In this document: one piece after another, positions 21,276-61,643 of the stretch
Numbering within the stretch: the first letter of the stretch is position 1
Layout of the letters: each line of letters opens with the position of its first letter
Program-made: the position numbers and the translations under genes
The notes under the pieces: model-generated
Told to the model about the DNA's origin: nothing
What the model saw: the letters and a program-made list of their open reading frames with translations, nothing else
Databases searched by the model: none
NCBI GenBank assembly: GCA_020849475.1
Contig: JADLGE010000009.1
Location: forward strand, 1-64,000
Reading direction: 5' to 3'
Length of the DNA: 64,000 bases
Source: Gammaproteobacteria bacterium
GTDB lineage: Bacteria > Pseudomonadota > Gammaproteobacteria > Ga0077536

Positions 21276-21307
21276 CTTGTGAGTCAGACTGAAGTCTGAC
21301 TCACAAG
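21276..21307. repeat. Perfect extended copy of the GTCAGACTGAAGTCTGAC palindromic repeat
   Basis: Two 15-bp arms, CTTGTGAGTCAGACT and AGTCTGACTCACAAG, flank a 2-nt centre (GA). It lies between the converging DUF1631 and VWA genes, so it could end transcription from both sides, though no long T-run follows. The core is shared with nine other copies in the window. The sequence GGGGACAGGTCTAATTTTTAC lies immediately to the left (21255-21275). Confidence 0.85.
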
Positions 21308-21322
21308 GAATCCTGGTTTTTC

Positions 21323-22699
21323 TCAAATCGCCGTCCGCGCGATTTCGCTCACCACTCTCTCCAGATGCTTCAAGCTGCGGCAGCTTTCTACCTTGTCGCA
21401 GGCCGCGCCGAGTTTCTGCATTTCCGAATCGCCTGAGTTCCAGAACGCCATCGGCTCCGGGTTCAGCCATAGCACGCGGCGGGCGCGTTCGTGGATGCGG
21501 CGCAATGAGCGTTCGCCGGCGTCGCCGTAATTGGAGCGCGCATCGCCCAGGATGATGACGGTGGTGCGCTGATCGATGTCAGCAAGGGTCAGGCGTTCCA
21601 GTTCCGCGAGCGCGCCGCCGTAATCGGTGGAACCCATGCCATAGGTGTTGACCGTTTCGATCACGGCGTCTTCCACCGGCTTGGTTTCGAACAGCTGGGT
21701 CACTTCGCCCAGGTGGCTCGAGAACGCAAACGCGCGCACCTTGGGCAGCACTTCGGCGACGCTGTAGAGGAACAAGAGCAGAAAGCGCGCGACCTGCGCC
21801 ACCGAGCCCGACACGTCGCACACGGCGATGACCTTGGGGCGGTCGACGCGCACGCGCTTCCACACCGTTTCGAACAACAGGCCGTCGTACTCGATGTTCT
21901 TGCGGATGGTGTGGCGCACGTCGAGCTGGCCGCGCTTGGAGACATGGCGGCGGCGCGAATGCAGCGATACCAGGCGCTTGGCGAGCTTGCGCACCAGTTC
22001 CTGCATGACCTTGAAGTCACGCATCTCGATGCGTGCCAAAGGCGTCTTCTGCAACACTTCCTCGCGCAGTTTCGGCCACGCATTGGCGGTGTACATCAGC
22101 ATCTGGCGATCGACCAGTTCGGCGACATTCTCGATGAGGCGCGCCTTCTGTTCTTTGAGCTTCAAGGCGCGCGGGTCGTCGTCGTTGGCTTTAAGCAGCG
22201 CGAACAGGAAGTCGTCCAGGGGCTCGATGCCCATGTCTTCGAGGATGCGGCGGATGTACATGCCGCGCTGGGTGAAGAGGCGGATGTTCTGCAGCTGCAC
22301 GTTGCGCGCGGCGCTGGCCAGGGCCTGCTGCAGGGCTGCGCCATCGCCGCGTTCCAGCATCGCGGCGAGACCGCCCGCGCCGCCGCCACCGCTGCCGCCC
22401 TGGCCGGCGTCGTCACCGGCCGCGCCCTCGCGCTGCGCATCGTCGCCGCCCTGCTCGCCGGCCAGCGCGTCGTCACCGCTCAGCGCTTCAAACGTGAAGA
22501 AGCGCTCGAAGCAATCATTGAAGCGCGATTTGTCGTCGGGGGTCTTGGCCAGCACCTGACCGAGCGCTTCCTTGATCAACGTGCGATGTTCAAAGCCGAC
22601 CAGTTCGAGCGCGGCTGCCGCATCGATGCTTTCGGCGGTCGACACGCGCACATCGCTGGCGCGCAGCGCCTTGATGAAATTGGAGAGGACCTGGGTCAC
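21323..22699 (-). CDS. VWA domain-containing CoxE-like protein
   Basis: 458 residues. The N-terminal helical part includes a Gly/Ala-rich acidic stretch (about 85-125). The C-terminal von Willebrand A domain (about 275-440) has the MIDAS motif CDVSGSV. This is the CoxE/YehP-type architecture that partners MoxR AAA ATPases. The start overlaps the end of the moxR-like gene by 4 nt. Such pairs usually remodel or insert cofactors into a client enzyme; no obvious client lies next to it here. Confidence 0.85.
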   Translation of the reverse strand: MTQVLSNFIKALRASDVRVSTAESIDAAAALELVGFEHRTLIKEALGQVLAKTPDDKSRFNDCFERFFTFEALSGDDALAGEQGGDDAQREGAAGDDAGQGGSGGGGAGGLAAMLERGDGAALQQALASAARNVQLQNIRLFTQRGMYIRRILEDMGIEPLDDFLFALLKANDDDPRALKLKEQKARLIENVAELVDRQMLMYTANAWPKLREEVLQKTPLARIEMRDFKVMQELVRKLAKRLVSLHSRRRHVSKRGQLDVRHTIRKNIEYDGLLFETVWKRVRVDRPKVIAVCDVSGSVAQVARFLLLFLYSVAEVLPKVRAFAFSSHLGEVTQLFETKPVEDAVIETVNTYGMGSTDYGGALAELERLTLADIDQRTTVIILGDARSNYGDAGERSLRRIHERARRVLWLNPEPMAFWNSGDSEMQKLGAACDKVESCRSLKHLERVVSEIARTAI

Positions 22700-23643
22700 G
22701 CGTTCTTCGCCGCCTGACGGGTCAGCGCCGGTACTTCGGCATCGACATGCTCGATGTCATCCTGGAATTTCAGCAGCACGTTCAGGGTCTGGCGCACCAG
22801 CGTCGGTTCGAGTTCGGCGGCGTGCAGCAGCAACAGGGTGCGCGCCCAGTCGATGGTCTCGCTGACCGCCGGCACTTTCTTGAGATCGAGTCCGCGCAGG
22901 CTCTGCACGAACGCCACCAGCTGCGTGCGCAGACCCGCTTCCAGCGCCGGCACGCGCGATTCGATGATGCGCTGTTCGAGCTTGGCATCGGGAAACGGAA
23001 TGTAGAGATGCAGACAGCGACGCTTCAAGGCATCGCCGATTTCACGGGTATTGTTGGAAGTCAGGAACACCACCGGCGGGTGCTTGGCCTTGACGGTGCC
23101 AATCTCGGGAATCGAGATCTGATAGTCCTGCAGCAGTTCGAGCAGGAAGGCTTCGAATTCCTGATCCGACTTGTCGATTTCGTCTATCAGCAGCACCGCG
23201 CCCTGCGGCGCCCACAGCGCTTTCAACAGCGGTCGCGGCTCGAGGAATTCCTCGTTGAAGAAGGTGTCGTCGAATTCATGCAGGCGCGCGATGGATTCCT
23301 TCAAGCCCTGCGCGCCCTGCATGAGGTCACCGAGCTTTTCCTTCAGCACCTGGGTGTAGAGCAGCTGCTTGCCGTATTTCCATTCGTACAAGGCCTTCGA
23401 TTCATCGAGACCTTCGTAGCACTGCAGGCGGATGAGCGGCTTGTCGAGCAGCTTGGCGGTGGCGTTGGCGAGTTCGGTCTTGCCCACACCGGGCGGGCCT
23501 TCCACCAGGATGGGCTTGGCCAGCGCCTGGGCAATGTACACGCAGGTCGCGATGGCGTCGCTGGCGATATAGCCCGAGCTCTGGAAGCCGCGCTGGATGT
23601 CGGCAAGGGCCGCGAGGGCGGCGTTGGGGGTGGCGGTGGTCAC
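22696..23643 (-). CDS. MoxR family AAA+ ATPase
   Basis: 315 residues. Walker A GPPGVGKTE (about residues 41-49), Walker B VLLIDEIDKSD, sensor-1 FLTSNNTRE and the arginine region RRCLHLYIPFPD are all clear. MoxR ATPases act as chaperone-like factors with VWA partners. Gene order moxR-VWA with a 4-nt overlap (22696-22699) means coupled translation. Client protein unknown. Confidence 0.93.
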   Translation of the reverse strand: MTTATPNAALAALADIQRGFQSSGYIASDAIATCVYIAQALAKPILVEGPPGVGKTELANATAKLLDKPLIRLQCYEGLDESKALYEWKYGKQLLYTQVLKEKLGDLMQGAQGLKESIARLHEFDDTFFNEEFLEPRPLLKALWAPQGAVLLIDEIDKSDQEFEAFLLELLQDYQISIPEIGTVKAKHPPVVFLTSNNTREIGDALKRRCLHLYIPFPDAKLEQRIIESRVPALEAGLRTQLVAFVQSLRGLDLKKVPAVSETIDWARTLLLLHAAELEPTLVRQTLNVLLKFQDDIEHVDAEVPALTRQAAKNA

Positions 23644-36643: not shown

Positions 36644-36673
36644 TTGAATGCGCGATTTCATTCGCACATTCAA
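36644..36673. terminator. Hairpin between converging genes
   Basis: TTGAATG (36644-36650) pairs with CATTCAA (36667-36673), with three more inner pairs past one mismatch and an 8-nt loop. It lies between the converging barrel-protein and crotonase genes. No clear T-run on either side. Confidence 0.35.
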
Positions 36674-45280: not shown

Positions 45281-45292
45281 CCCGTCCATCAC

Positions 45293-46702: not shown

Positions 46703-46809
46703 GCGTCCATCGCAGAGTCTTCCTGGCGCTGTCCCTGCCGGCTGGCCGGCTCGCCGCGCTCGGGAGTATCGTGGTGTACAGGTTTGGCGAGGAGACGCGC
46801 AAGCTGTGA
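46699..46809 (+). pseudogene. Possible remnant of an RNA 2',3'-cyclic phosphodiesterase gene (thpR-like N-terminus)
   Basis: A 36-codon frame from a GTG overlapping the MFS stop (GTGA). RRVFLALSLPAGRLAAL resembles the N-terminus of ThpR/LigT proteins (R-L-F-x-A-L-x-L-P). It stops after 36 codons, a few bases before a palindromic repeat pair, and no other ThpR motif follows. Support is weak; chance similarity is possible. Confidence 0.25.
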
Positions 46810-46816
46810 CTCGCGC

Positions 46817-46890
46817 TGTGTGGGTCAGGCTTCAGCCTGACAGTGGCGGCGCGCCACTTGGTTCGAATGTCAGACTGAAGTCTGACCCAC
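46817..46890. repeat. Inverted pair of GTCAGACTGAAGTCTGAC repeats, with a compensated variant
   Basis: Core 46824-46841 reads GTCAGGCTTCAGCCTGAC: an A-to-G change in one arm is matched by a T-to-C change in the other, keeping base pairing. The second core, 46869-46886, is standard. They lie between the MFS gene and the NUDIX gene. Confidence 0.85.
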
Positions 46891-46912
46891 GAGGGGACCA
46901 GGCCGCGCGCAT

Positions 46913-47563: not shown

Positions 47564-47648
47564 GGTGCTCGCGCATCTCCAAGACATGGACCGGGCCGGA
47601 CTTTATCACAGCCGCCGCCACGCGCTGGGCGGGCGGCCGCCACGCGTC

Positions 47649-47654
47649 TATACT
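47649..47654 (+). promoter_or_regulatory. Candidate -10 element very close to the mscS-family start
   Basis: TATACT lies only 8 nt before the ATG at 47663; the transcript could be almost leaderless, or translation may begin at the next ATG (47705). No -35 match was found, so this is tentative. Confidence 0.25.
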
Positions 47655-47662
47655 GCGCCGCG

Positions 47663-49852: not shown

Positions 49853-49879
49853 CTAGAGTTCGCTACCCGTCCTGTGAAG

Positions 49880-49897
49880 GTCAGACTTCAGTCTGAC
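49880..49897. repeat. Single GTCAGACTGAAGTCTGAC-family repeat
   Basis: GTCAGACTTCAGTCTGAC (the reverse orientation of the core), 27 bp after the mscS-family stop. Its flank GACATTCGAGCGG resembles the flank of the copy at 61624. No inverted partner is seen nearby. Confidence 0.85.
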
Positions 49898-50003
49898 ATT
49901 CGAGCGGTCGCGAACGAATTTCCACCTACAAATTCTCCGCTAGCGGTCGCTAACCTCCGTTTGAACGCATCACCGCGGGATTGCGCCGCACGGAGGATCA
50001 CCC

Positions 50004-50771
50004 ATGGACCATTCACGAATTTCATTCAAGGCCGGCAGTCTCGTCGCCGGTCTGCTCATCGCCGGCAGCGCCGGCGCCGAGGAAGCGGCGGACGCCGCGG
50101 CCTCGCCCCATACTTTCAGCGCCAATGTCGGACTCTTTTCCGAATACGTATTCCGCGGCATCACCAACTCCAACGAAGGGCCGGCCATCCAGGGCGGCTT
50201 CGATTACGCGCACGAGTCGGGCTTTTATCTCGGCGTGTGGGCCTCGAACATCGAGTTCGGCGCCGGCACCAGTGACACAGCGTCGATAGAAACCGATTTC
50301 TACGGCGGCTTTGCCGGCAAGTTCGCCAATGGCATCGGCTGGGACGTCGGCATGATCTACTACGCCTATCCCGACCAGAACGAAGATTTCGCGGCCGATT
50401 ACAACTACTTCGAAGGCTACGGCAAGCTCAACTACACATGGGCCGGCCTGCAATTCTCACCATCGCTGGAAGTGGGCCTGTATTACTCGCCCGATTACTT
50501 CGGTGAAGACGGCGACGGCGTCTACACCTACGGCACCTTCGGCGCGACCTTGCCCTATGACTTCAGTCCCTATGTGACGGTCGGCTATCAATACGTCGAC
50601 GGTGACCAGACTTCGGGGCCGGCCGGCTACGACTACGTGCATTACGCGGTTGGCGTCAACAAGACCCTGGGCCATTTCACCGCCGACCTGTCGTGGCAGG
50701 ACGCGCGCGATCTGTCCGGTTGCAACGACAACTGCGAAGCGGTGGTGTTCTCGGTATCGAGCAGCTGGTAG
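50004..50771 (+). CDS. TorF family putative porin
   Basis: 255 residues. Signal peptide (SLVAGLLIAGSAGAEE), then the family start FSANVGLFSEYVFRGITNSN and repeated aromatic-rich strands (DVGMIYYAYPDQ, GYGKLNYTWAGL), ending VVFSVSSSW. This is the TIGR02001/TorF pattern of small outer-membrane barrels of unknown substrate. GGAGG lies eight bases before the ATG. Confidence 0.88.
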   Translation: MDHSRISFKAGSLVAGLLIAGSAGAEEAADAAASPHTFSANVGLFSEYVFRGITNSNEGPAIQGGFDYAHESGFYLGVWASNIEFGAGTSDTASIETDFYGGFAGKFANGIGWDVGMIYYAYPDQNEDFAADYNYFEGYGKLNYTWAGLQFSPSLEVGLYYSPDYFGEDGDGVYTYGTFGATLPYDFSPYVTVGYQYVDGDQTSGPAGYDYVHYAVGVNKTLGHFTADLSWQDARDLSGCNDNCEAVVFSVSSSW

Positions 50772-50791
50772 ATGCGCGCGGCGCACAGCAT

Positions 50792-51751
50792 TCAGTGCCG
50801 GCCTGCGCCCTCGAGCAGGGTGCAGGCGTGGCCTGCCACGCCGGTTTCGACCTGGAAGGTGGCGTGATGAATCGCGTATTCATCACGCAGCGCATGCGCC
50901 AGTTCGTCCAGGAAGTCGTCGCCCGGGTGTCCAAGCGGCATGACGAGGTGAGCGGTCAAGGCGACCTCGGTGGTGCTGAGCGCCCAGATGTGAAGGTCGT
51001 GCACTCCGCTTACGCCCTGCTGGGCTTCCAGAAATCGCGCGACCGGCGCGCTGCTCAAGTGCGCCGGCACCGCGTGCAGTGACAATAGGGCGCTGTCGCG
51101 TAACAAGCGCCAGGTGCTGAGCAACACCACCGTCATGATCGCGAACGACACCAGCGGGTCCAGCCACACCCAGCCGGTGCGCAGGATGAGATAACCACTG
51201 ACGGCGACGCCCAAGGAAATCAGCGCGTCGGCCAGCATGTGCATGAAGGCCGCGTTGAGGTTCAAGTCGTGGCGGCGATCGCGCAGGAAGAACAGCGCCG
51301 TGACGGCGTTCACCCCCACCCCCACCAGCGCCACCACCATCACCGTCGCGCCGGCCACGCTGCTCGGTGTCATGAGCTTTTGCAGCGCTTCGAGCGCAAG
51401 ACCACCGCAGGCCAGCAGCAGCATCACCGCATTGGCCAGCGCCGCGAGGATGGTTGAACTGCGCAAGCCATAGGTGAAACGCGGGCCCGGCGCGCGCCGC
51501 GCCAGCCAGGCCGCGAACCACGCCAGCGCGAGGCCGGCCACGTCGCCGAGATTATGGATGGCGTCCGCCACGAGGGCGGTTGAATGCGAAGCGATGCCAT
51601 AGCCGAATTCGACCGCCACGAAGGCGCTGTTCAAGGCGATGCCGGTGGCAAAGGCGACATCATGCCGGCCGCCCGCCGCGGCGTGGCCGTGGCCGTGGCC
51701 ATGGGCGTGGCCATGGGCGTGGCCATGGGCGTGGTGCGCGTGGCCGTGCAT
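50792..51751 (-). CDS. Cation diffusion facilitator (zinc transporter) with His-rich N-terminus
   Basis: 319 residues from the ATG at 51751. N-terminus is a His/Gly/Ala tract (HGHAHHAHGHAHGHAHGHGH). Six membrane helices; metal sites VADAIHNLGDVAG in helix 2 (with the usual HxxxD) and HMLADALISLGV in helix 5 (HxxxD). The C-terminal cytoplasmic domain includes VSGVHDLHIWALS. It is a CDF exporter, likely for zinc or cobalt. It follows the glutamine-synthetase-like gene by 55 bp. Confidence 0.92.
   Translation of the reverse strand: MHGHAHHAHGHAHGHAHGHGHGHAAAGGRHDVAFATGIALNSAFVAVEFGYGIASHSTALVADAIHNLGDVAGLALAWFAAWLARRAPGPRFTYGLRSSTILAALANAVMLLLACGGLALEALQKLMTPSSVAGATVMVVALVGVGVNAVTALFFLRDRRHDLNLNAAFMHMLADALISLGVAVSGYLILRTGWVWLDPLVSFAIMTVVLLSTWRLLRDSALLSLHAVPAHLSSAPVARFLEAQQGVSGVHDLHIWALSTTEVALTAHLVMPLGHPGDDFLDELAHALRDEYAIHHATFQVETGVAGHACTLLEGAGRH
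51695..51730. repeat. Three tandem 12-bp units in the His-rich N-terminus of the CDF gene
   Basis: GTGGCCATGGGC repeats exactly three times (51695-51706, 51707-51718, 51719-51730), encoding AHGH units on the minus strand. Slippage here would change the length of the His tract without breaking the frame. Confidence 0.8.
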
Positions 51752-51806
51752 CAGCGTGTGCTCGCGCCGGTCTCGTCGCCGCTCACCATGTTGATGCGCT
51801 GCGTGC

Positions 51807-53168
51807 TCACAGCGTATGCAGATACCAGTCGTAATCCTGCTGCGGTATTTCACCGAAGTAGCGGCCGCTCTCGGTGCGCTTGATGCCGCAATAGACTTCG
51901 ACGAAGCGCTGGCCGAAGTATTCGCGCGCGAATTGCGACTCTGCGAAGCGGTCGATGGCCGACAGCCAGTCGCGCGGCAGCGGCGCGTGACTTTTCTGTT
52001 GGTAGGCATCACCGCTGACCGCCGGCCCGGGGTCGATGCCGTGCTTGAGACCGTGATGCACGCCGGCCAGCACTGCCGCCGCCACCGCGTAGGGATTGGC
52101 GTCGGCGCCGCAGATGCGATGTTCGACATGGCGTGAGTCGGCCGGCCCGGTCGGAATGCGCAGCGCCACGGTGCGATTGTTGACGCCCCAGTTCGCCACC
52201 AGCGGCGCGCAGTTATAGGCCTGGTAGCGCCGATAGGAATTACCGAAAGGCGCGAACAGCGCCATCATGTCGCCGGCGCTGGCGGCCATGCCGCCGATGG
52301 CGTGCCTGAGCAATTCGTTGCCGTCGGCCGCGTCGCTGGCGAACACATTGCGCCCTTGCGCATCGTTCAGGCTCAAATGCAGATGCAGGCCCGAGCCCGG
52401 CAGCACCGGGAAGGGCTTGGCCATGAATGAGGCCCACAGGCCGTGACGCTGCGCCACGCCGCGCACCGCGCGCTTGTACATCACGCCTTCATCGAGCGCG
52501 CGCAAGGCGTTGGCGCGATGCTTCAGGGTGATCTCGAACTGGCCCGGTCCGAATTCCGAAATGGTGGTCGAGACCGGCAGCCCCTGCGTTTCACAGCAGG
52601 CGTAAAGGTCGTCGAGAAATTCCGCGCGCGATTCGATTTCCTCGACGCTGTACACATGAGGATGCTTGCCGCGGGTGGCCGCTGCCTGCGCGCGCCCCTC
52701 GCGCACCGCGTCGGCGTCGAGCAGGTAGAACTCGAGCTCGACCGCCATCACCGGTGTGTAGCCGTCCTGCTCGAGGAGACTGATCACACGCTGCGCGGCG
52801 AGGCGCGGATCAGCGGCGGCCGCTGGCCCGCCCAGCACCGGGTCGAACATCATCAACACCTGAGCGGTCGGCGTCTTCAGCCACGGCGTTGGCACGAGGG
52901 TGCCGGGCAGCGGCCACGCCAGGCAGTCCATGTCGCCGATGTCCCACAACAGGCCGGTGTTCTCGGCGTCGTCACCGTCGGCGGTCAGGGCGGCGATGGA
53001 GCTTGGCAGCGGCAGGCCTTCGGTATAGATGCGCTCGAGTTCCGCGCGTTGCACGGACTTGCCGCGCAGGATGCCGTTCAGGTCGGTCTGCATGAGCTGC
53101 ACATGACGCAACTCGGGATGGCGGGCGAGAAACTCGCGGGCCTGGTCCGGATGGGAGCCGGTGCTCAT
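51807..53168 (-). CDS. puuA: Glutamine synthetase family protein, likely gamma-glutamylpolyamine synthetase
   Basis: 453 residues from the ATG at 53168. GS fold with VELEFYLLD, SEFGPGQFEITL, GSGLHLHLSLND, RVEHRI-like segment (RHVEHRICGADANPY) and the C-terminal catalytic loop. The pattern is of the GS III / PuuA type rather than true GlnA. Its neighbours are agmatine deiminase, polyamine transport and amine-oxidase genes, which supports gamma-glutamylation of putrescine. The symbol is by context. Confidence 0.8.
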   Translation of the reverse strand: MSTGSHPDQAREFLARHPELRHVQLMQTDLNGILRGKSVQRAELERIYTEGLPLPSSIAALTADGDDAENTGLLWDIGDMDCLAWPLPGTLVPTPWLKTPTAQVLMMFDPVLGGPAAAADPRLAAQRVISLLEQDGYTPVMAVELEFYLLDADAVREGRAQAAATRGKHPHVYSVEEIESRAEFLDDLYACCETQGLPVSTTISEFGPGQFEITLKHRANALRALDEGVMYKRAVRGVAQRHGLWASFMAKPFPVLPGSGLHLHLSLNDAQGRNVFASDAADGNELLRHAIGGMAASAGDMMALFAPFGNSYRRYQAYNCAPLVANWGVNNRTVALRIPTGPADSRHVEHRICGADANPYAVAAAVLAGVHHGLKHGIDPGPAVSGDAYQQKSHAPLPRDWLSAIDRFAESQFAREYFGQRFVEVYCGIKRTESGRYFGEIPQQDYDWYLHTL

Positions 53169-53273
53169 AGGGGAATCCTCGTCGTGACGCTGGAATGCCC
53201 GGCGCCGGTTTTGACATGATCGCCTGAGCATTAGCGGCCGCGCAACGCAGCGATGGATGCGGGACGTCGCTAC

Positions 53274-53350
53274 TGTGTGGGTCAGACTTCAGTCTGACAC
53301 CGCCACTCACCCGAGCTACTCACTCCTGATGTCAGACTGAAGTCTGACCG
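53274..53350. repeat. Inverted pair of GTCAGACTGAAGTCTGAC repeats in a divergent promoter region
   Basis: Cores at 53281-53298 and 53331-53348 in opposite orientations. They lie between the divergent glutamine-synthetase-like and agmatine deiminase genes; the second ends 18 bp before the latter's ATG, so it would affect that gene's leader. Confidence 0.85.
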
Positions 53351-53366
53351 GCAATACAATGGCGCC

Positions 53367-54461
53367 ATGAGTGACATCTTGACGAGCACCCCGCGCGCCG
53401 ACGGTTACGCCATGCCGGCCGAATGGGCGGCGCAAGCACGCTGCTGGATGATGTGGCCGACGCGTCCCGACACCTGGCGGGCCGCCGCCGCACCGGCGCA
53501 GGCGACGTTTGCCACGGTCGCCAATGCCATCGCCGAATTCGAGCCGGTGGTCATAGGCGTCGATGCCGCGCATTACCGCCATGCCCGCCAGCTGCTCAGC
53601 GCCGCCGTCGACCTCCAGCTCATCGACAGCAACGACGCCTGGATGCGTGACATCGGTCCGACCTTCGTGCGCAACGGTGAAAACAAGTTGCGCGCCGTCG
53701 ATTGGGTCTTCAACGCCTGGGGCGGCTTCGATGGCGGTCTCTATCAGCCCTGGGATGCCGACGACGCGGTGGCCGCGCGAGTGGCCGAGCTTGCCGGCGT
53801 GCCGCGTTATCGCGCACCGCTGGTGCTGGAAGGCGGCGCCATTCATGTCGATGGTGAAGGCAGCTGCCTCACCACCGAACAATGCCTGCTCAACCGCAAT
53901 CGCAATCCAGCGCTCACACGCGCCGACATCGAACAGCAGCTGCGCGAATATCTTGGCGTTGACAGCGTGCTGTGGCTGGGGCAGGGCGTGTACCAGGACG
54001 AGACCGACGGTCATGTCGACAACCTCGCCTGCTTCCTGCGGCCGGGCGTGGTGGCCTTGAGCTGGTGCGATGACCGTGACGATCCGCAGCATGCCATTTC
54101 CGCCGACGCGCTGGCGCGTCTGCGTGGCTTTCGCGATGCGCGCGGCCGCAGGCTCGAAGTGGTGAAGATTCCGCAGCCGCGACACATGCCGCGCATGAGC
54201 GCGGCGGAGGCGGCCGGGCTTACGCCAACAGCCGGCAGTCATCCGCGCCCGGCGGGCGCGCGCCTCGCGGCGTCCTATGTGAATTTCCTGCTGGTGAACG
54301 GCGCGCTGATCCTGCCTGCCTTCGATGACGATCACGACGCGCGCGCTGCCGCCATCCTCGCCGAGCAGTTTCCTACGCGGGAAATTCGCCAGGTGCCGGG
54401 ACGCGAGATCCTGCTTGGCGGTGGCTGCGTGCATTGCATTACCCAGCAGCAGCCCGCCTGA
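53367..54461 (+). CDS. aguA: Agmatine deiminase
   Basis: 364 residues. Porphyromonas-type peptidyl-arginine deiminase fold: MPAEWAAQARCWMMWP at the start, DAWMRDIGPTFV, DETDGHVDNLACF with the catalytic Asp/His, and the nucleophile Cys357 in GGGCVHCITQQ. It turns agmatine into N-carbamoylputrescine and ammonia. The N-carbamoylputrescine amidase aguB is not in the window. It converges on the polyamine transporter genes, ending 9 bp from potI. Confidence 0.93.
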   Translation: MSDILTSTPRADGYAMPAEWAAQARCWMMWPTRPDTWRAAAAPAQATFATVANAIAEFEPVVIGVDAAHYRHARQLLSAAVDLQLIDSNDAWMRDIGPTFVRNGENKLRAVDWVFNAWGGFDGGLYQPWDADDAVAARVAELAGVPRYRAPLVLEGGAIHVDGEGSCLTTEQCLLNRNRNPALTRADIEQQLREYLGVDSVLWLGQGVYQDETDGHVDNLACFLRPGVVALSWCDDRDDPQHAISADALARLRGFRDARGRRLEVVKIPQPRHMPRMSAAEAAGLTPTAGSHPRPAGARLAASYVNFLLVNGALILPAFDDDHDARAAAILAEQFPTREIRQVPGREILLGGGCVHCITQQQPA

Positions 54462-54470
54462 AAGATCGCG

Positions 54471-55310
54471 TCAGTCGGGCGCGTTGACCGCCATCTGTGC
54501 GTCGCGCTGCTGCTGGCGTTCCTGGCGCGTCATGACCACGCCAGCCACGATCATCGCCACCGACACCACCAGCACCATCAAGGTCGCGAGGGCGTTGATC
54601 TCGGGCGAGAGTCCGAGCCTGACCTTGGAATAGATCACCATCGGCAGGGTGCTGGCGCCGGGGCCGGACACGAAACTCGAGACCACGAGGTCGTCCAGCG
54701 ACAAGGTGAAGGCCAGCAGCCAGCCCGACACCAGCGCCGGTGCGATGATGGGTAAGGTCACGACCAGAAAGACCTTGGCCGGACGCGCACCCAAATCCAT
54801 CGCCGCTTCTTCGATGGAGGGATCCATGCCGATAAGGCGTGATTGCACGACCACCGTGACATAGGCCATGGCAAACGTTGCATGGGCGATGACTATGGTC
54901 AGCGTGCCGCGTCCGGCGGGCCAGCCGATGGCCTGTTCCAGCGCCACGAACAACAGCAGCAGTGACAGACCGGTGATCACTTCCGGCATCACCAGCGGCG
55001 CAGTGACGAGTCCGCTGAACAGGGCGCGGCCGCGAAACGGACCAAAGCGCGTCAGGCACAGCGCCGCCAGTGTGCCAAGCACGGTGGCGAGGCAGGCAGT
55101 CATGCTCGCAATCTTGAGACTCAGCAGCGCCGCCTCGAGAATCTGCTGGTTGTGCAGCAGCGCGCCATACCACTTGGTGGAAAAGCCCGCCCACACCGTC
55201 ACGAGCTTTGATTCGTTGAACGAAAAAATGATCAGCGAGGCGATGGGCAGGTAGAGAAAGGCGAGGCCCGCCAGCAACCAGCCCGACAGCCAGCGCGGCG
55301 TGCGCTTCAT
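54471..55310 (-). CDS. potI: Polyamine ABC transporter permease, PotI type
   Basis: 279 residues from the ATG at 55310, overlapping the potH stop (ATGA). Six membrane helices with the permease EAA loop EEAAMDLGARPAKVFLVVTLP. Begins WLLAGLAFLYLPIASLIIFSFNESK, typical of PotC/PotI. Forms the membrane channel with PotH. Confidence 0.92.
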   Translation of the reverse strand: MKRTPRWLSGWLLAGLAFLYLPIASLIIFSFNESKLVTVWAGFSTKWYGALLHNQQILEAALLSLKIASMTACLATVLGTLAALCLTRFGPFRGRALFSGLVTAPLVMPEVITGLSLLLLFVALEQAIGWPAGRGTLTIVIAHATFAMAYVTVVVQSRLIGMDPSIEEAAMDLGARPAKVFLVVTLPIIAPALVSGWLLAFTLSLDDLVVSSFVSGPGASTLPMVIYSKVRLGLSPEINALATLMVLVVSVAMIVAGVVMTRQERQQQRDAQMAVNAPD

Positions 55311-56308
55311 GCCGAGGCCTCGCTGCGCCGCTGCAGCCAGCCCTGCAGCACCATGATCACCACCACCAGCGACAGCATTGCGATTGCCACGGCCGACGCC
55401 ACTGGCCACGCGCGGTTGGCGAAGAATTCTTCCCACAGCACTTTGCCGATCATGAGGGTGTCGGTGCCGCCCAGCAGATCGGGGATCACGAATTCACCCA
55501 GGGCCGGAATGAACACCAGCGAAAAGCCGGCGATGATGCCGGGCGCCGACAAGGGCAGGGTGATGGCGAGAAATGCTTTCCATGGCCGGCTGCCGAGATC
55601 GGCGGCGGCTTCGAGCAGCGTATCGTCGAGTTTTTCCAGGGTCGCGTAGAGCGGCAGGATCATGAACGGCAGGTAGGAATAGACGATGCCGACGTAGACC
55701 GCGAAGTTGGTGCGCATCATGACGATGGGACTGTCGATGAGGCCGAGCGCGATGAGCACGTTGTTGATCACACCGTTGTTGTTCAAGAGACCTATCCAAG
55801 CGTAGACGCGCAGCAGAAAGGAAGTCCAGAACGGCAGCACCACCAGCATCAGCAGCACATTGCGCCACGCGCTCGGTGCACGCGCCATGGCATAGGCCAT
55901 CGGGTAACCGATGATGAGACAGATAAGCGCCGAGAAGAACGCCACTTCCACCGAGCGCAGATAGGTTTTGAAATAAAGCGCGTCTTCGAGCAGGAAGCGG
56001 TAATTGCTCAAATGCAGCTTGAGCGTGAGGCCGCCCTCGGCGGTGCGTTCAATGAGAGAGCTGTAGGGCGGTTGCGCAATCAACTGCTCGGCGAAGGAAA
56101 TCTTCAGCACGATCAGGAACGGCACCAAAAAGAACAGAGCCAGCCAGGCATAGGGCAGGGCGATGACGCCGCGCTGCCCGGCGAGGCCCAGCGCGCCGAA
56201 CAGATTCAATATCCAGCGCAGTGGCGCGATGCGCATCAGCGCGCGCACCAGCGGTTCCGAGCCCTTGGCCAGGCGGTCGCCGAGCGGCAGATAGCCGACG
56301 CGGCTCAC
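55307..56308 (-). CDS. potH: Polyamine ABC transporter permease, PotH type
   Basis: 333 residues from a GTG at 56308 that overlaps the potG stop (GTGA). Membrane permease with the EAA loop LEAAADLGSRPWKAFLAITLP. The first ~45 residues before the first helix are longer than in E. coli PotH. Pairs with PotI. Confidence 0.9.
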   Translation of the reverse strand: MSRVGYLPLGDRLAKGSEPLVRALMRIAPLRWILNLFGALGLAGQRGVIALPYAWLALFFLVPFLIVLKISFAEQLIAQPPYSSLIERTAEGGLTLKLHLSNYRFLLEDALYFKTYLRSVEVAFFSALICLIIGYPMAYAMARAPSAWRNVLLMLVVLPFWTSFLLRVYAWIGLLNNNGVINNVLIALGLIDSPIVMMRTNFAVYVGIVYSYLPFMILPLYATLEKLDDTLLEAAADLGSRPWKAFLAITLPLSAPGIIAGFSLVFIPALGEFVIPDLLGGTDTLMIGKVLWEEFFANRAWPVASAVAIAMLSLVVVIMVLQGWLQRRSEASA

Positions 56309-57450
56309 GAGGTCAGCACCACACCACTGGCGGCGTGCCACGACAGCCACACGGCATCGTCCCAGTCGATGCGGTCCTCGGCGTGGCGGATGAGATTCGG
56401 TTGTGTGACTTTGACCGACATGCCCGAGGCGAGCTTGACCTTGAACACCGAGATGTCGCCCATGTAGGCAATACCCTCGACCGTGCCCTGCACGCAGTTT
56501 TCACCGGTGCTGGCCGGCGGCTCGCGGCTGATGAGTATTTTCTCCGGCCGCAGTGCCACCCAGATGGCGCCGCCCGGCGAGGCGGCCACGCCGTGGTTGA
56601 TGAACAGCGTGCAGTCGGCGCTGGTCGAGCGGATGCGCACGTAGTCATTGTCTTCGTCAATGATGTGGCCTTCGAAGATGTTCACCGAGCCGATGAAATC
56701 GGCGACGAAGCGGCTGTTCGGGAACTCGTAGATCTCGCTCGGCGTGCCGGTCTGTACGATGCGGCCGTGATCCATCACACCGATGCGCGAGGCGAGCGTC
56801 ATGGCCTCTTCCTGGTCATGGGTGACGATGATGAACGTCACGCCGAGGGTGTCCTGGATGTTCATCAACTCGAACTGGGTCGATTCACGCAGCTTTTTGT
56901 CGAGCGCCGCCAGCGGTTCGTCGAGCAGCAAGAGCTTGGGCTGCTTGACCAGCGAGCGGGCCAGCGCCACGCGTTGGCGCTGACCGCCGGACAACTGGTG
57001 CGGCTTGCGGCGCGCGAACGCCGACAGCTTGACCAGTTCCAGCATCGCTTCGACCTTGTCACGGATCTCCTGGCGCGAACGGCTCTCCTGCTTCAGGCCG
57101 AAAGCGACGTTGTCCAGCACCGTCATGTGCGGGAACAGCGCGTAGGACTGGAACATCATGTTGACCGGCCGCTGATAGGGCGGGATGTCGGTCATGTCGA
57201 CATCATCGATGTAAATGCGCCCGGCACTCGGCTCCTCGAAACCCGCCAGCATGCGCAACAGCGTGCTCTTGCCGCAGCCCGAGCCACCCAGCAGGCAGAA
57301 CAGTTCCTTGTGGTAGATGTCGAGCGAGAGATCATTGACCGCCACGAAATCGCCGAAGCGCTTGCTGACATGCTCGATGCGCACGTAGGGCCGCGCGCCG
57401 GCATCGGTCCACGGCGTCGGCGCGCTGCGCTCGCTGCTGGCGTCGGTCAT
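56305..57450 (-). CDS. potG: Polyamine ABC transporter ATP-binding protein, PotG type
   Basis: 381 residues. Walker A GGSGCGKSTLLRM (about 55-67), Q-loop MMFQSYALFPHM, ABC signature LSGGQRQRVALARSL, Walker B LLLLDEP and H-loop IVTHDQEEAM. A C-terminal TOBE-like regulatory region follows from about residue 280. Powers the PotFGHI system. It lies 15 bp after potF. Confidence 0.93.
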   Translation of the reverse strand: MTDASSERSAPTPWTDAGARPYVRIEHVSKRFGDFVAVNDLSLDIYHKELFCLLGGSGCGKSTLLRMLAGFEEPSAGRIYIDDVDMTDIPPYQRPVNMMFQSYALFPHMTVLDNVAFGLKQESRSRQEIRDKVEAMLELVKLSAFARRKPHQLSGGQRQRVALARSLVKQPKLLLLDEPLAALDKKLRESTQFELMNIQDTLGVTFIIVTHDQEEAMTLASRIGVMDHGRIVQTGTPSEIYEFPNSRFVADFIGSVNIFEGHIIDEDNDYVRIRSTSADCTLFINHGVAASPGGAIWVALRPEKILISREPPASTGENCVQGTVEGIAYMGDISVFKVKLASGMSVKVTQPNLIRHAEDRIDWDDAVWLSWHAASGVVLTS

Positions 57451-57465
57451 GGGGACGGGCGCCGG

Positions 57466-58653
57466 CTATTGATTGGTTTTGACGCGGGTCCAGGCGCGCG
57501 TCACGAGTCGGTCATAGTCGGGCGGATTGACGACATTCGGAAACAGGGTCGCGCGGGTCGCTGCATCGGGATAAATCGCCGGGTCGTGTACGACCTCGGG
57601 ATCCATCTTGGCGGTGGCGGCGACATTGGCATTGGCGTACTGCACTTCGTTGCTGATGGCGGCGGTAACCTCGGCGCGCAGGATGTAGTCCATGAACTTG
57701 TAAGCGTTCTCGACGTGCGGCGCGTCCTTGGGGATGGCCATGGTGTCGAACCACATGAGCGTGCCTTCCTTGGGGATGACGTAGGCGATGTCATTGCCGT
57801 TCTTGGCTTCCTTGGCGCGCGCGCGCGCCTGGAAAATATCGCCGCTCCAGCCCATCACCAGGCACAGCTCGCCGTTGGCCAGATCGTTGATGTACTGCGA
57901 TGAATGGAAATACTTGATGTGCGGCCGCACCTGCATCAGCGCTGCTTCGACCTTGGCCAAGTCTTCGGCGGTCTGGCTGCCGGTGGGCAGGTTGAGATAG
58001 CGCAGCATCAGAGGCACGACTTCGCTGGGGGTGTCGAGCATGCTCACGCCGCAATCCTTGAAGCGCGCGACGATTTCAGGCTTGAACAGCATGTCCCAAC
58101 TGGTGATGGGCGCATCGTTCATGCGTTCCTTGATCTTGGCGACGTTGTAACCGATGCCGTCGGTGCCCCACAGGTAGGGCAGCACATAGGCATTGTCCGG
58201 GTCGTACCCCGCCAGGGACTTCATGATCTCCGGATCGAGGTTCTTGTAGTTGCTGAGCTTGCTCTTGTTGAGGCGCTGGAAGATGCCGGCCTTGATCTGG
58301 CGGGCGACGAAGTTGGCCGACGGCACCACGATGTCGTAACCGGTGTTGCCGGCCAACAGCTTGGCCTCCAGCACTTCGTTGCTGTCGAACACGTCGTAAC
58401 GCACCTTGATGCCGGTTTCCTTTTCGAAATTGGCAACGGTGTCAGGCCCGATGTAGTCCGACCAGTTGTAGATGTTCAAGACTTTTTCTTCGGCCTGCGC
58501 CTCGGGCGCCGCGGCGGGCGCCGCACTTTCAGCGGGCGCGGGCGTTGGCGCGGCGGCGCTGCCCGCGGTGCTGGCGCTGTCGCCGCCGCCGCAGGCGCTG
58601 AGTAACAGGGTGAGGGCGGCCGGGACGACGACGCGCAGGCGCATGCAGGACAT
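57466..58653 (-). CDS. potF: Polyamine ABC transporter substrate-binding lipoprotein, PotF type
   Basis: 395 residues from the ATG at 58653, chosen because AAGGAA lies six bases upstream; a longer frame to 58695 lacks this. Lipobox LLLSACGG puts the lipid on Cys21, so the protein is membrane-anchored. An Ala/Pro linker follows, then the PotD/PotF fold beginning VLNIYNWSDYIGPDT and GYDIVVPSANFVARQI. Putrescine or other polyamines are the expected ligands. Confidence 0.92.
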   Translation of the reverse strand: MSCMRLRVVVPAALTLLLSACGGGDSASTAGSAAAPTPAPAESAAPAAAPEAQAEEKVLNIYNWSDYIGPDTVANFEKETGIKVRYDVFDSNEVLEAKLLAGNTGYDIVVPSANFVARQIKAGIFQRLNKSKLSNYKNLDPEIMKSLAGYDPDNAYVLPYLWGTDGIGYNVAKIKERMNDAPITSWDMLFKPEIVARFKDCGVSMLDTPSEVVPLMLRYLNLPTGSQTAEDLAKVEAALMQVRPHIKYFHSSQYINDLANGELCLVMGWSGDIFQARARAKEAKNGNDIAYVIPKEGTLMWFDTMAIPKDAPHVENAYKFMDYILRAEVTAAISNEVQYANANVAATAKMDPEVVHDPAIYPDAATRATLFPNVVNPPDYDRLVTRAWTRVKTNQ

Positions 58654-58687
58654 TTTTTGTTCCTTGGGAAAAGCAGCAGAGTTGAAA

Positions 58688-60070
58688 TCAGGCATGACCG
58701 TTGACGGCAGCCAGTGTCAGGTCCAGGCAGCGGCGTGCGAGCGTCAGCAATTCGTCGATTTCGCCGCGACTCATGACCAGCGCCGGCGCGATGATCATGG
58801 TGTCACCCACCGCGCGCATGATGAGACCTTGTTCAAAACAGAAATCGCGGCAGACCGTACCGACTTCGCCGACCGGCGTGAAACGCTGGCGACGGGCCTT
58901 GTCGCGCACCAGTTCCAGCGCGGCCATGAAGCCGACGCCGCGTACTTCACCGACCAGTGGATGGTCGGCGAGCTCCGCCAGGCGTGCCTGCAGATAGGGG
59001 CCGGTGTCGTCGTGCACGCGTTCGACGATGCGCTCGTCGCGCAGGATGCGCACGTTGCGTTCGGCCACCGCGCAGCAGGTCGGATGGCCGGAATAGGTAT
59101 AGCCATGGTTGAACTCGCCACCGCGTTCGATGAGCACGCGTGACACCTCATCGCTGACCATCACGCCGCCGATGGGCAGATAGCCGGACGACAGGCCCTT
59201 GGCGATCACCATGAGGTCCGGCGTATAGCCGAAATGCTCGCAGCCGAACCAGCGGCCGAGACGGCCGAAGCCGCAGATCACTTCGTCGCTGACCAGCAGA
59301 ATGCCGTACTTGCGACAGATGCGTTCGATTTCCGGCCAGTAGCTGGCCGGCGGCACGATCACCCCGCCGGCGCCCTGGATGGGTTCGCCGATGAAAGCCG
59401 CGACCCGGTCGGCGCCGATGGCGAGGATGCGTTCTTCCAGGCGTCGCGCGGCAAGTAGTCCAAATGCCTCAGGGTCGAGTTCGCCGCCCTGCTCGAACCA
59501 GTAGGGCGGCTCGATGTGTTCGATGCCCGGTATCGGCAGGTCGCCCTGCTCGTGCATGTAACGCATGCCGCCCAGGCTCGCACCCGCCATGGTGCTGCCG
59601 TGATAGGCGAGCCAGCGGCTGATGATGACCTTGCGCTGCGGTTGGCCCTGCACCTGCCAGTAATGGCGCACCAGGCGCACCACGGTGTCGTTGGCTTCCG
59701 AGCCGGAGGAAGTGAAGAACACGTGGTTGAGATGGGCGGGCGTGACTTCGGCGAGCAGCGCCGCGAGGGCCAGGGTCGGTGGCGTCGCGGTCTTGAAAAA
59801 ACTGTTGTAGAACGGCAGCTCCAGCATCTGCGCGCTGGCCGCGTCGGCCAATTCGCGGCGGCCATAGCCGACGTTCACGCACCATAGGCCCGCCATGCCA
59901 TCGAGGATGCGCGCGCCGTCCGAATCCCACAGGTAAACCCCTTCAGCACGCGTGATGATGCGTGCGCCGCGGGCATGCAGCGCACGGCTGTCGGTGAACG
60001 GATGCAGGTAGTGACGGCGGTCGAGATCCTGCCAGGCAAGCGTGTCTTGTGATGGGGCTGGCGTGCTCAT
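58688..60070 (-). CDS. spuC: Class III aminotransferase, likely putrescine/polyamine:pyruvate aminotransferase
   Basis: 460 residues from the ATG at 60070. PLP motifs: FTSSGSEANDTVVRL, YHGSTMAGASLGG, SDEVICGFGRLGRWFG and the PLP Lys291 in VIAKGLSSGYLPIGG. The pattern fits omega-amine/putrescine aminotransferases such as SpuC. It starts the minus-strand operon spuC-potF-potG-potH-potI. An upstream start at 60139 is possible. Confidence 0.87.
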   Translation of the reverse strand: MSTPAPSQDTLAWQDLDRRHYLHPFTDSRALHARGARIITRAEGVYLWDSDGARILDGMAGLWCVNVGYGRRELADAASAQMLELPFYNSFFKTATPPTLALAALLAEVTPAHLNHVFFTSSGSEANDTVVRLVRHYWQVQGQPQRKVIISRWLAYHGSTMAGASLGGMRYMHEQGDLPIPGIEHIEPPYWFEQGGELDPEAFGLLAARRLEERILAIGADRVAAFIGEPIQGAGGVIVPPASYWPEIERICRKYGILLVSDEVICGFGRLGRWFGCEHFGYTPDLMVIAKGLSSGYLPIGGVMVSDEVSRVLIERGGEFNHGYTYSGHPTCCAVAERNVRILRDERIVERVHDDTGPYLQARLAELADHPLVGEVRGVGFMAALELVRDKARRQRFTPVGEVGTVCRDFCFEQGLIMRAVGDTMIIAPALVMSRGEIDELLTLARRCLDLTLAAVNGHA

Positions 60071-60128
60071 GCGGTGGCGGGATCTCTGCTTGCATTCGCG
60101 GCCAGGTGACCGCTCTGGCGCATCATTA

Positions 60129-60141
60129 ACATGTTTCATGT
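60129..60141. promoter_or_regulatory. Operator-like palindrome in the divergent spuC/oxidase region
   Basis: ACATGTTTCATGT (5-bp arms around TTT) lies 59 bp before the aminotransferase start and 115 bp before the oxidase start. A dimeric regulator of both divergent genes could bind here. Single site, no match to a known operator, so speculative. Confidence 0.25.
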
Positions 60142-60256
60142 GGAGCGTCGAGCCAGTGTACTGTGAGGCGTCGGCATGCGCCTTGCGGCCTTGCACAGGC
60201 TGTGCGCATCATGCCCTTTCAGTGTGCACATCGCGCTTCGACAGCGGCCCCTCATC

Positions 60257-61531
60257 ATGCCCCACAACCCCTCATCCTATTATCAGCGCAGCGCCGCGCC
60301 GCGTCCGCAGTGCACGGCGCTGCACGGCGATGTGAGTTGCGATGTGGCGGTGGTCGGCGCCGGCATCACGGGCTTGTCGGCGGCGCTGCATCTGCGTGAG
60401 CGCGGCTATCAGGTGGTGGTGCTGGAGGGCGCTGAAATCGGCGCGGGCGCCTCGGGGCGCAGCGGCGGCCAGGTGCTGGCCGGCTTTGCCTGCGGTGTGG
60501 CGACGCTCAGGCAGCACCTGGCAGGCAGCGATGTACGGCGTCTGTGGGAGATGTCGCGCGAGGCGGTGCAACTGACCCGCGACTTGATTGCGCGCCACGC
60601 CATCGCCTGTGATTGGCGCGATGGTCATGTCGATGTCGCGGTCAAGCCGCGTCAGCGCCGCGAACTCGCTGACATGGCCGACACCCTGGCACGCGAATGC
60701 GGCGACCGCAGCCTTGAACTGCTCGATGGCGCAGCGCTGGCGCGCGAAGTGTCGAGCCGCCGTTACTGCGCCGGTCTTTACGACCGCGACAGCGGTCATG
60801 TGCATCCTCTGAACTACACCTTGGGCCTGGGCCATGCCGCGTTGGCGGCCGGCGCGAGCATCCATGAGCACACACCGGTGCTGGCCATGGAAGTCGGCAA
60901 GGATGTGAGCCTGGTCACCGCCGGCGGCCGCGTGCGCGCGGCGCATGTCATTCTGGCGCAGAACACCGGGCGCCCGGTGCTGGACGCGCGCCTGCGCGCC
61001 AAGATCATGCCGGTAGGCACCTATATCGCCGCCACCGAACCCCTCGGCGCCGCACGCGCGCGGAGCCTGGTGCCTGGCGATGCTTCTGTGTGCGACATCA
61101 ATTTCGTGCTGGATTACTTCCGCCTGTCGGCCGACCACCGCTTGCTGTTTGGCGGCCGCGTCAGCTATTCCGGCATGACGCCGCCCAATCTTGCCGCGTC
61201 GATGCGCGCGCGCATGCTGCGTGTGTTTCCCTCGCTCGACGACGTCGCCATCGATTCGGTGTGGGGCGGTGAGGTCGACATCACCATGAATCGCGCGCCC
61301 CATTTCGGCACGCGTGATGGGCGCGTGCTGTTCGCGCAAGGCTTCTCCGGGCATGGCATGGCGCTGACCGCACTGGCGGGCAAGCTCATGGCGGAAGCCG
61401 TGGCCGGGCAGTCAGAGCGTTTCGATGTGTTCAGCCGCATCACCCACCGCGATTTCCCGGGCGGACCGTGGCTGCGCACACCCGCGCTGGTGATGGCGAT
61501 GCTGTATTACCGACTGCGCGATTTTCTGTAG
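60257..61531 (+). CDS. puuB: FAD-dependent oxidoreductase, likely gamma-glutamylputrescine oxidase
   Basis: 424 residues from the ATG at 60257. Dinucleotide-binding motif VVGAGITGLSAALHL (about 33-47), GASGRSGGQVLAGFA, and the DAO-type C-terminal FAQGFSGHGMALTALAGK. Matches PuuB/OrdL amine oxidases. Together with the GS-like gene it would give the gamma-glutamylated putrescine pathway. Diverges from spuC. Confidence 0.85.
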   Translation: MPHNPSSYYQRSAAPRPQCTALHGDVSCDVAVVGAGITGLSAALHLRERGYQVVVLEGAEIGAGASGRSGGQVLAGFACGVATLRQHLAGSDVRRLWEMSREAVQLTRDLIARHAIACDWRDGHVDVAVKPRQRRELADMADTLARECGDRSLELLDGAALAREVSSRRYCAGLYDRDSGHVHPLNYTLGLGHAALAAGASIHEHTPVLAMEVGKDVSLVTAGGRVRAAHVILAQNTGRPVLDARLRAKIMPVGTYIAATEPLGAARARSLVPGDASVCDINFVLDYFRLSADHRLLFGGRVSYSGMTPPNLAASMRARMLRVFPSLDDVAIDSVWGGEVDITMNRAPHFGTRDGRVLFAQGFSGHGMALTALAGKLMAEAVAGQSERFDVFSRITHRDFPGGPWLRTPALVMAMLYYRLRDFL

Positions 61532-61573
61532 CTGTGAATTCATGCGCACATAGGCGCCGAGCATGCCGGCGAA

Positions 61574-61643
61574 TGTCAGACTGAAGTCCGACCCACAGAA
61601 AGAGCGGCTCGATGCATTGTGGATGAGACGTCAGTCTGACATT
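61574..61643. repeat. Inverted pair of GTCAGACTGAAGTCTGAC repeats, partly decayed
   Basis: Cores at 61576-61593 (GTCAGACTGAAGTCCGAC, one mismatch) and 61624-61641 (ATGAGACGTCAGTCTGAC, several mismatches). The spacer GCGGCTCGATGCATTGTGG matches the spacer of the 45.2 kb pair, showing a common longer unit. Lies between the converging oxidase and CAP/RTX genes. Confidence 0.8.

Follow-up and report, generated by a model that had tools for sequence, protein, structure and literature searches.

Dispersed intergenic palindromes in a gammaproteobacterial genome very probably form a REP family with a cognate RAYT on another contig

The 64,000-nucleotide stretch of gammaproteobacterial DNA analyzed here (the window) carries a set of near-identical palindromes, and the locus raised the question of what these palindromes are and what spreads them. 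The first-pass annotation had reported ten copies, all outside genes, had described them as REP/BIME-like, and had offered three roles: setting mRNA ends, being mobilized in trans, or serving as sites for a DNA-binding protein. When the window was searched with the 18-mer core and at most 3 mismatches, matches were found at ten places (18 strand-wise matches); 100 dinucleotide shuffles of the window yielded a mean of 0.02 matches and a maximum of 1. The number of copies was therefore upheld, and, as reported, the first 21 kb contained none at this threshold. Eight of the reported coordinates were exact, and two (61576 and 61624) were off by one and should read 61575 and 61623. All ten copies were located in gaps between script-called genes. 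Ten of the 11 genes bordering REP gaps were scanned, and all ten scored above the cut-off of a Pfam family; the gene at 61694-63076 was outside the scan. An ORF read from its first possible start, the TTG at 45254, would cover the core at 45260; the script places the start at 45293.

The consensus of these palindromes (family A) consisted of a GTGG head, a 7-bp stem, a TTCA loop, a 7-bp stem, and an ATTC tail, with the stem sequence GTCAGAC/GTCTGAC. The reported TTCA or TGAA loop was present in every copy but the degenerate one at 61623 (3 mismatches), which has GTCA/TGAC. The four inverted pairs that had been claimed were found, in two arrangements. In 45204/45260 and 61575/61623 the heads face inward, whereas in 46824/46869 and 53281/53331 they face outward; the copies at 21283 and 49880 were single. 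A sibling family (family B), which has a different stem and the loop, tail, and head style of family A, was also represented. The inverted pairs were able to fold as one hairpin, and the fold z scores of the four pairs in the window ranged from -2.3 to -10.0. The elements were as follows.

21278-21305 (core 21283-21300): single family-A REP, mirror-symmetric, arms TGTGA/TCACA, head on both sides; convergent gap; as single-strand DNA, 21270-21313 forms a hairpin whose main stem is 14 bp (z -7.19).
36646-36671 (core 36650-36667), plus strand: single family-B copy, 2 mismatches; convergent gap.
45199-45282 (cores 45204-45221, minus strand, and 45260-45277, plus strand): family-A inverted pair, GTGG heads inward; tandem gap; 45190-45290 forms a single hairpin (z -10.00).
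46819-46891 (cores 46824-46841, plus strand, and 46869-46886, minus strand): family-A inverted pair, heads outward (the REPIN arrangement); convergent gap; fold of 46810-46900, z -4.69.
49875-49902 (core 49880-49897): single family-A REP of the symmetric tail type, arms TGAAG/ATTCG; tandem gap; followed by a decayed family-B core at 49908-49925 (5 mismatches); fold of 49870-49935, z -1.70.
53276-53353 (cores 53281-53298, plus strand, and 53331-53348, minus strand): family-A inverted pair, heads outward, with the head of the minus-strand core decayed to TGCCG; divergent gap; fold of 53264-53360, z -5.84.
61528-61670: A/B composite in a convergent gap, made up of a family-A pair with heads inward (61575-61592, minus strand, and 61623-61640, plus strand), a family-B core at 61532-61549 (plus strand, 3 mismatches), and a decayed family-B core at 61649-61666 (minus strand, 5 mismatches); fold of 61528-61672, z -2.32.

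Across the 5.4-Mb genome, the 18-mer gave 298 forward and 285 reverse matches at up to 2 mismatches, and a reversed-pattern control gave none on either strand. Because a perfect site is counted on both strands, the number of family-A sites is at least 298, and it would be about 370 if the ratio in our sample (137 sites to 214 matches) applied genome-wide. This copy number exceeds the 100 per genome taken here as the mark of a high-copy REP. The sample consisted of ten contigs (1.23 Mb) that were picked as carriers of listed copies or of the RAYT gene described below, so the copy density in it does not represent the genome. Five cores near piece ends were dropped, which left 148 of 153 cores at up to 4 mismatches; with a limit of 3 mismatches, 143 of 148 remained. 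The reversed pattern matched the sample 0 times at up to 2 mismatches, 9 times at 3, and 91 times at 4; 97 of these 100 matches were within 30 bases of a family-A core, as shifted matches to the elements themselves, and the other three had 4 mismatches.

The intergenic bias seen in the window held in the sample: 138 of the 143 cores were clear of called genes, compared to 7.4% of 20,000 random 18-mers. Four of the other five overlapped the 3' end of a gene by 10 to 17 bases, and one was contained in a called gene at a distance of 3 bases from the gene start, which perhaps reflects a start-codon error. The two outcomes that the first-pass annotation had named as refuting its claim, frequent copies in coding genes and a lack of enrichment, were thus not observed. 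For annotation, the sites of family A and the sites of family B (at least 244 in the genome) mark intergenic space. Single copies accounted for 52 of 100 family-A groups, and 45 of the 47 two-core groups were inverted (24 with heads inward and 21 with heads outward). A GTAG-type tetranucleotide preceded the palindrome in both families. Specifically, the commonest arms of 72 perfect family-A cores were TGTGG (40), TGAAT (7), and TGTCG (4), which led us to reject a CGTC-tagged REP, and TGTAG was found at 14 of 38 perfect family-B cores. The stem was preserved by paired changes, both in the window (GTCAGGC/GCCTGAC in core 46824-46841) and between species, since the commonest version in the related genome G002 was GTCGGAC/GTCCGAC.

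RAYTs (TnpA-REP proteins) are Y1 HUH nucleases of the IS200/IS605 superfamily. The window contained no REP-associated transposase, in agreement with the first reading, and the genome contained one Y1_Tnp match, on contig 79. The encoded 149-aa protein scored 147.8 bits against the REP_Tyr_transpos model NF047646 (cut-off 80) and 31.3 bits against the IS200 model (cut-off 55). An IS200/IS605 element was rejected on this score and because the single match in the genome is not that of a multicopy IS. In a PDB search, the sole match up to an E value of 0.001 was 4er8, named TnpArep (E 4e-08), and the HLH and YIVANPV segments of the RAYT aligned with its HUH motif and catalytic tyrosine region (H-hydrophobic-H and Y-x-x-x-N-P-V). 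The gene was located between copies of the family-A palindrome, with a pair 90 bases upstream of the ORF and a copy 10 bases downstream; the nearest upstream core was on the plus strand and the downstream core on the minus strand, with heads outward. The flanking copies and the 147.8-bit match together indicated that the palindromes are a REP/REPIN family and have a cognate RAYT, and the contig 79 RAYT is likely to be the partner enzyme of family A. Since the assembly is 95.8% complete, a second RAYT could be missing from it.

Among the 40 genomes searched, family A was confined to this genus: G001 and G002 gave 181 and 122 forward matches, respectively, and the other 37 genomes gave 0 or 1 per strand. 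In G002, where a single place was read, the head was GTAG (TGTAG) and the tail began with ATT. The RAYT relative in G001 was an 81% identical protein with the same neighbors on both sides; it had a REP downstream only, with none in 320 bases upstream. The relative in G002 was 54% identical, with the same neighbors on the one side present, and a third stem downstream only, the upstream contig being 173 bases. We also examined the best 80 of 426 RAYT relatives. After a loose look at 30 of these loci, a strict two-sided flank test was applied to 78, two having been dropped for a short flank. One and the same GTRG-tagged hairpin was found on both flanks in 26 of the 78 (13 with a TTCA loop), compared to 1 of 111 controls, and the best pairs were direct rather than inverted in 17 of the 26. 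One of the 80 contigs was recorded as "Klebsiella pneumoniae," which we took as a mislabel and did not use otherwise.

Taken together, extragenic placement, high copy number, inverted pairs, and a RAYT between copies sustain the REP/BIME comparison, and the palindromes very probably are a REP family in which about half of the groups are inverted pairs (REPINs, from which BIMEs are built) and whose one cognate RAYT is encoded elsewhere in the genome. We regard the nature of the repeats as settled and the likely enzyme as located. Mobilization in trans fits a RAYT that is on another contig and flanked by the same palindrome, and we infer that this RAYT mobilizes the elements, given the copies themselves and what has been published about other RAYTs. 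A REP would fold when its DNA is single stranded, for instance in the lagging-strand template, and the RAYT would read the head and hairpin, nick a dinucleotide beside the element, and move or copy the pair to another place. Surviving copies would be those that harm no gene, chiefly those between convergent genes.

In the available text of the published accounts, GTAG-tagged REPs and REPINs, such as P. fluorescens GI GTGGGAGGGGGCTTGC and Thioalkalivibrio HL-EbGR7 GTAGGTCGGCCTTCAGGCCGAC (Nunvar 2010, PMC2817692; Bertels and Rainey 2011, PMC3116915), share with these elements a GTRG head, a short stem, extragenic location, many copies, inverted pairs, and a cognate RAYT. The Thioalkalivibrio REP described there (PMC2817692) also has the TTCA loop of family A. 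GTAG is the commoner head in the REPs described, but GTGG variants are in print. Unlike those REPs, family A has a stem, GTCAGAC, that was limited to this genus among the 40 genomes, and many single copies. Family A is thus new by sequence only, and the class of intergenic repeats to which it belongs is well known.

The first alternative is that the palindromes are retained because they function at transcript ends (mRNA 3' protection or termination), with mobility past or minor. REPs occupied 41 of 76 convergent gaps of at least 60 bases, compared to 35 of 293 tandem and 13 of 173 divergent gaps; of the 57 cores in tandem gaps, 44 were closer to the upstream stop; and 14 of 16 REP-bearing orthologous gaps also held a REP in G001. 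However, removal of insertions from promoters predicts the same gap pattern, and 13 of 93 occupied gaps were divergent, without a 3' end. The consensus tail ATTC has no T run, and the 17 terminator-like sites in 44500-64000 did not include any of the nine copies there, so a terminator was rejected. The mRNA-end role first suggested was thus less supported than mobilization, with the convergent-gap enrichment leaving room for a secondary 3'-end role, and we consider the alternative as a whole rather unlikely. A known RNA family was rejected with zero Rfam matches in the window.

The single copies bear on how the REP family changes. Mirror symmetry was found in 28 of 45 single-A groups and in 1 of 92 family-A members of multi-A groups (P = 2e-16). 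In these arm counts, cores with more than 2 mismatches were left out and one base off TGTGG, TGTAG, or TGAAT was allowed; 4-mismatch cores without recognizable arms and overlapping duplicates were also left out of the groups. Family B was alongside 7 of 12 tail-tail singles and 0 of 16 head-head singles (P = 0.0007), and alongside 13 of 26 heads-inward pairs and 3 of 22 heads-outward pairs (P = 0.013). The predominance of symmetric singles fits what the collapse of inverted pairs would leave: deletion between two near-identical cores would produce one mirror-symmetric hairpin. According to the available text of PMC6006769, "double foot" REPs begin with GTRG and end with the complement of that tag, with central deletion of an inverted dimer proposed as the origin, and PMC3116915 mentions such a deletion as unpublished data. 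Compared to those REPs, head-head and tail-tail products are both present here and are sorted by context. Correction of an imperfect palindrome by template switching would likewise yield perfect 12-bp arms, but it should also affect paired copies, among which symmetry was nearly absent, and the family-B context of each type of single resembles that of its supposed parent pair. We therefore consider template switching improbable and favor pair collapse.

That the palindromes are sites for a host DNA-binding protein (gyrase, a nucleoid protein, or a regulator) and owe their spread to selection rather than to a transposase is very unlikely. Conservation was high, with 71 of 148 sampled cores perfect, and 25 of 39 tail-to-tail spacings were at 55-58 and 6 at 44-46, about one helical turn apart, but the RAYT is flanked by the same sequence, families A and B are limited to one genus with stem changes, the GTRG head is common to RAYT-linked REPs, and the periodicity was weak (best Rayleigh R of 0.64 for the 39 tail-to-tail and 0.39 for 46 head-to-head spacings, from a scan of periods 8-14 without a null), which makes helical phasing suggestive only. 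Separately, a GGGGACAGGTC motif next to the single REP at 21283, which resembles a terminal-repeat consensus quoted in the available text for other Y1 transposases, was dropped as a terminal repeat, since the 12-mer occurred once in the window and its 25-base stretch once in the genome.

This genus has two REP families that differ in the stem and agree in loop, tail, and head style, in a genome in which one RAYT was found. Where the two meet, A was on the inner side of B, and the head of B pointed outward (left B on the plus strand in 29 of 30 cases and right B on the minus strand in 29 of 34). Hybrid REP dimers that join different GTAG families in one composite are described for S. maltophilia in the available text of Di Nocera 2013 (PMC3733652); unlike those, the composites here have near-fixed polarity. 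In the "orthoswitch" of Pseudomonas and Stenotrophomonas, as presented in the available text of Nunvar 2013 (PMC3686654), orthologous RAYTs are flanked by different REP classes and the older class remains. That account used copy numbers and a model, whereas two families were compared here at orthologous gaps, and comparing related species allows one to test, at individual sites, whether one REP family has replaced another. Both the symmetric singles and the family swapping fit these published "double foot" and "orthoswitch" processes. Stem variants would arise together with a lineage of RAYTs and take the place of the older family.

We tentatively suggest, as a doubtful but conceivable reading, that family A enters and converts or displaces B hairpins in place by way of the GTRG head, TTCA loop, and ATTC tail that both families have, with the result that occupied intergenic sites would persist and the stem would be swapped; this was drawn from the inner position and near-fixed polarity of A relative to B and from the presence of B in G001 at A gaps. 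If true, it would supply a mechanism for the unexplained "orthoswitch." An attempt to show that A had replaced B to the exact base at orthologous sites did not succeed; positions agreed within tens of bases, so independent insertion into permissive gaps could also account for them. Where a gap here bears a REP, the orthologous gap of the sister species mostly had one as well, in many cases from the other family. Across 81 orthologous gaps, a REP was present only in this genome in 2 and only in G001 in 2, a difference that does not demonstrate movement. In nine gaps with A alone in this genome, G001 had B alone in five (one of these B matches lacking recognizable arms), both families in two, and A alone in two. 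One gap with both A and B in this genome was empty in G001.

The palindrome of the window, hereafter family A (stem GTCAGAC/GTCTGAC, loop TTCA), had been reported in ten copies. Allowing up to 3 mismatches, its 18-mer hairpin core was matched at ten sites in the window, compared to 0.02 expected, and the core coordinates first assigned were exact for eight copies and off by one for two. The source genome, G000 (5.40 Mb, 137 contigs, 95.8% complete), gave 298 forward and 285 reverse matches with up to 2 mismatches, and the reversed-pattern control gave none. Because perfect sites match both strands, the genome contained at least 298 sites.

Placement was analyzed in a 1.23-Mb sample of G000 (ten contigs, whole or in part, picked for bearing copies or the transposase gene described below), with genes called by our own hexamer-based script. 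The proposed intergenic bias was borne out: 138 of 143 sampled cores were clear of called genes, compared to 7.4% of random 18-mers. Four of the 143 overlapped the 3' end of a gene and one was within a gene, 3 bases from its called start. Eleven genes border the window copies; Pfam scans of ten of them gave families above the cut-off in every case. Among gaps of at least 60 bases, family A occupied 41 of the 76 between convergent genes, 35 of the 293 between tandem genes, and 13 of the 173 between divergent genes.

Aligned copies gave the consensus TGTGG - GTCAGAC - TTCA - GTCTGAC - ATTC(A/G), and the element was directional because of its GTGG head and ATTC tail. The sample held 100 family A groups (cores with up to 4 mismatches): 52 with a single core, 47 with two, and one with three. 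Among the 47 groups of two cores, 45 were inverted, the heads facing inward in 24 and outward in 21. All four pairs in the window were predicted to fold into single-strand hairpins (z, -2.3 to -10.0). Tail-to-tail spacings in the sample and in G001, a relative of the same genus, bunched around two values, 44-46 and 55-58 bases, which differ by about one helical turn.

The first-pass annotation had suggested looking for a REP-associated tyrosine transposase (RAYT) gene flanked by the same palindrome. The G000 genome contained one match to a Y1 transposase, and it was such a gene:

Contig 79 of G000 (locus L009), 1444-1893: RAYT gene, between copies of the family A palindrome

The 149-aa product scored 147.8 bits against the NCBI REP-associated tyrosine transposase model (cut-off, 80), and its sole PDB match at E values up to 0.001 was 4er8, named TnpArep. 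It scored below the threshold of the IS200 model (31.3 bits; cut-off, 55). The open reading frame was preceded at 90 bases by an inverted family A pair and followed at 10 bases by a single core; the nearest cores on both sides had their heads outward. A search of G000 for a second RAYT found none. Thus, the inverted pairs, extragenic copies, and cognate RAYT upheld the REP/BIME-like assignment, and the palindromes are a REP/REPIN family. Judged from sequence, the family is ordinary in kind and its sequence is new; five 18- to 22-mers of family A and a sibling family, B, had no occurrence in the literature searched, which excluded most subscription journals. We infer that the RAYT mobilizes these elements, based on their association and on published work on other RAYTs.

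The RAYT relative in G001 was 81% identical, with the same neighbors on both sides and family A found downstream only. In G002, another relative of the genus, it was 54% identical, with the same neighbors on the one side that its contig covers. The downstream flank of the G002 gene carried a third stem, GTAG-GGCCGAT-TTCA-ATCGGCC (upstream sequence amounted to just 173 bases), and this stem had 107 forward matches in G002, 1 in G000, and 0 in G001. We also examined the flanks of more distant RAYT relatives: among the best 80 of 426, flanks of 60 bases or longer were available for 78. A matching GTRG-tagged hairpin was present on both sides within 300 bases in 26 of the 78, compared to 1 of 111 random stretches from the same loci. 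The best-matching hairpin pair was direct in 17 of the 26 and inverted in nine, and the loop was TTCA in 13 and TTTA in five. This conserved loop fits the loop intolerance described in part of PMC8266576, in which certain loop positions were unchangeable for two RAYTs of perfect-stem REPs. Two side observations concerned individual loci. A second, distant Y1 transposase gene was located near 734-1144 of G002 contig 134 (L146), close to long GGTCTGTCCCCGTTTA-type inverted repeats that are unlike the GTAG REPs; this arrangement resembles the TIRYT of the literature. In addition, a public MAG labeled Klebsiella pneumoniae (L010, CAMCBY010000487.1) bore the 81% RAYT relative on a 3,352-base contig, equal in length to contig 487 of G001, and the species label looks wrong.

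Family B (TGTAG - GTGCGAA - TTCA - TTCGCAC - ATTC) resembles family A in loop, tail, and head style but differs in its stem. It had 91 matches with up to 2 mismatches in the G000 sample (control, 0). Forward matches numbered 244 in G000, 324 in G001, and 0 in G002, and the other 37 relatives had 0 to 3 matches per strand. The exact stem was found at four RAYT relatives (L012, L015, L018, and L035), one of them Thiopseudomonas denitrificans. The window contained the following:

36650-36667: family B copy
61532-61549: family B copy
31710, 49908, and 61649: decayed family B copies

Within 110 bases of a family A core, left-hand B copies were on the plus strand in 29 of 30 cases and right-hand copies on the minus strand in 29 of 34. 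Therefore, B copies have outward-pointing heads, with A on their inner side, as in the A/B composite cluster at 61.5 kb. Two families in a genome with one RAYT found would fit the "orthoswitch" described in sections of PMC3686654, where one orthologous RAYT has several REP classes, the older without a RAYT; there, the authors left the molecular mechanism to speculation.

Within 1.00 Mb of G001, we matched 81 of the 622 G000 gaps of at least 40 bases. REPs occupied 14 of the 81 in both genomes, two in G000 only, two in G001 only, and 63 in neither (p 7e-12 for shared occupancy, with gap length uncontrolled). Where G000 had A alone (nine gaps), G001 had B alone in five, A and B in two, and A alone in two. 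Where G000 had B alone (six gaps), G001 had B in five and no REP in one, and the one gap with A and B in G000 was REP-free in G001. The sites were therefore more persistent than the stems. A may take over B in place; gene conversion was reportedly proposed for REP evolution by Higgins et al. in 1988. Repeated insertion into permissive gaps may give the same occupancy pattern. Distances to conserved flanks differed by no more than tens of bases in some of the 14 shared gaps, with an exact one-sided match in two (B versus B in each), but by up to 149 bases in others, so this mixed agreement fits in-place takeover and repeated insertion alike.

Mirror symmetry was found in 28 of 45 single-A groups (16 head-head and 12 tail-tail), compared to 1 of 92 A members of multi-A groups. 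Deletion between the two cores of an inverted pair would leave such singles: a heads-outward pair would yield a head-head single, and a heads-inward pair would yield a tail-tail single. The family B context of the singles agreed with that of the presumed parent pairs, as B accompanied 13 of 26 heads-inward pairs and 7 of 12 tail-tail singles, compared to 3 of 22 heads-outward pairs and 0 of 16 head-head singles. Singles were no more decayed than multi-A members (29 of 45 versus 47 of 92 perfect cores). An origin of such "double foot" REPs by central deletion has already been put forward in PMC6006769 and PMC3116915. In G001, symmetric singles were few (one of five single-A groups).
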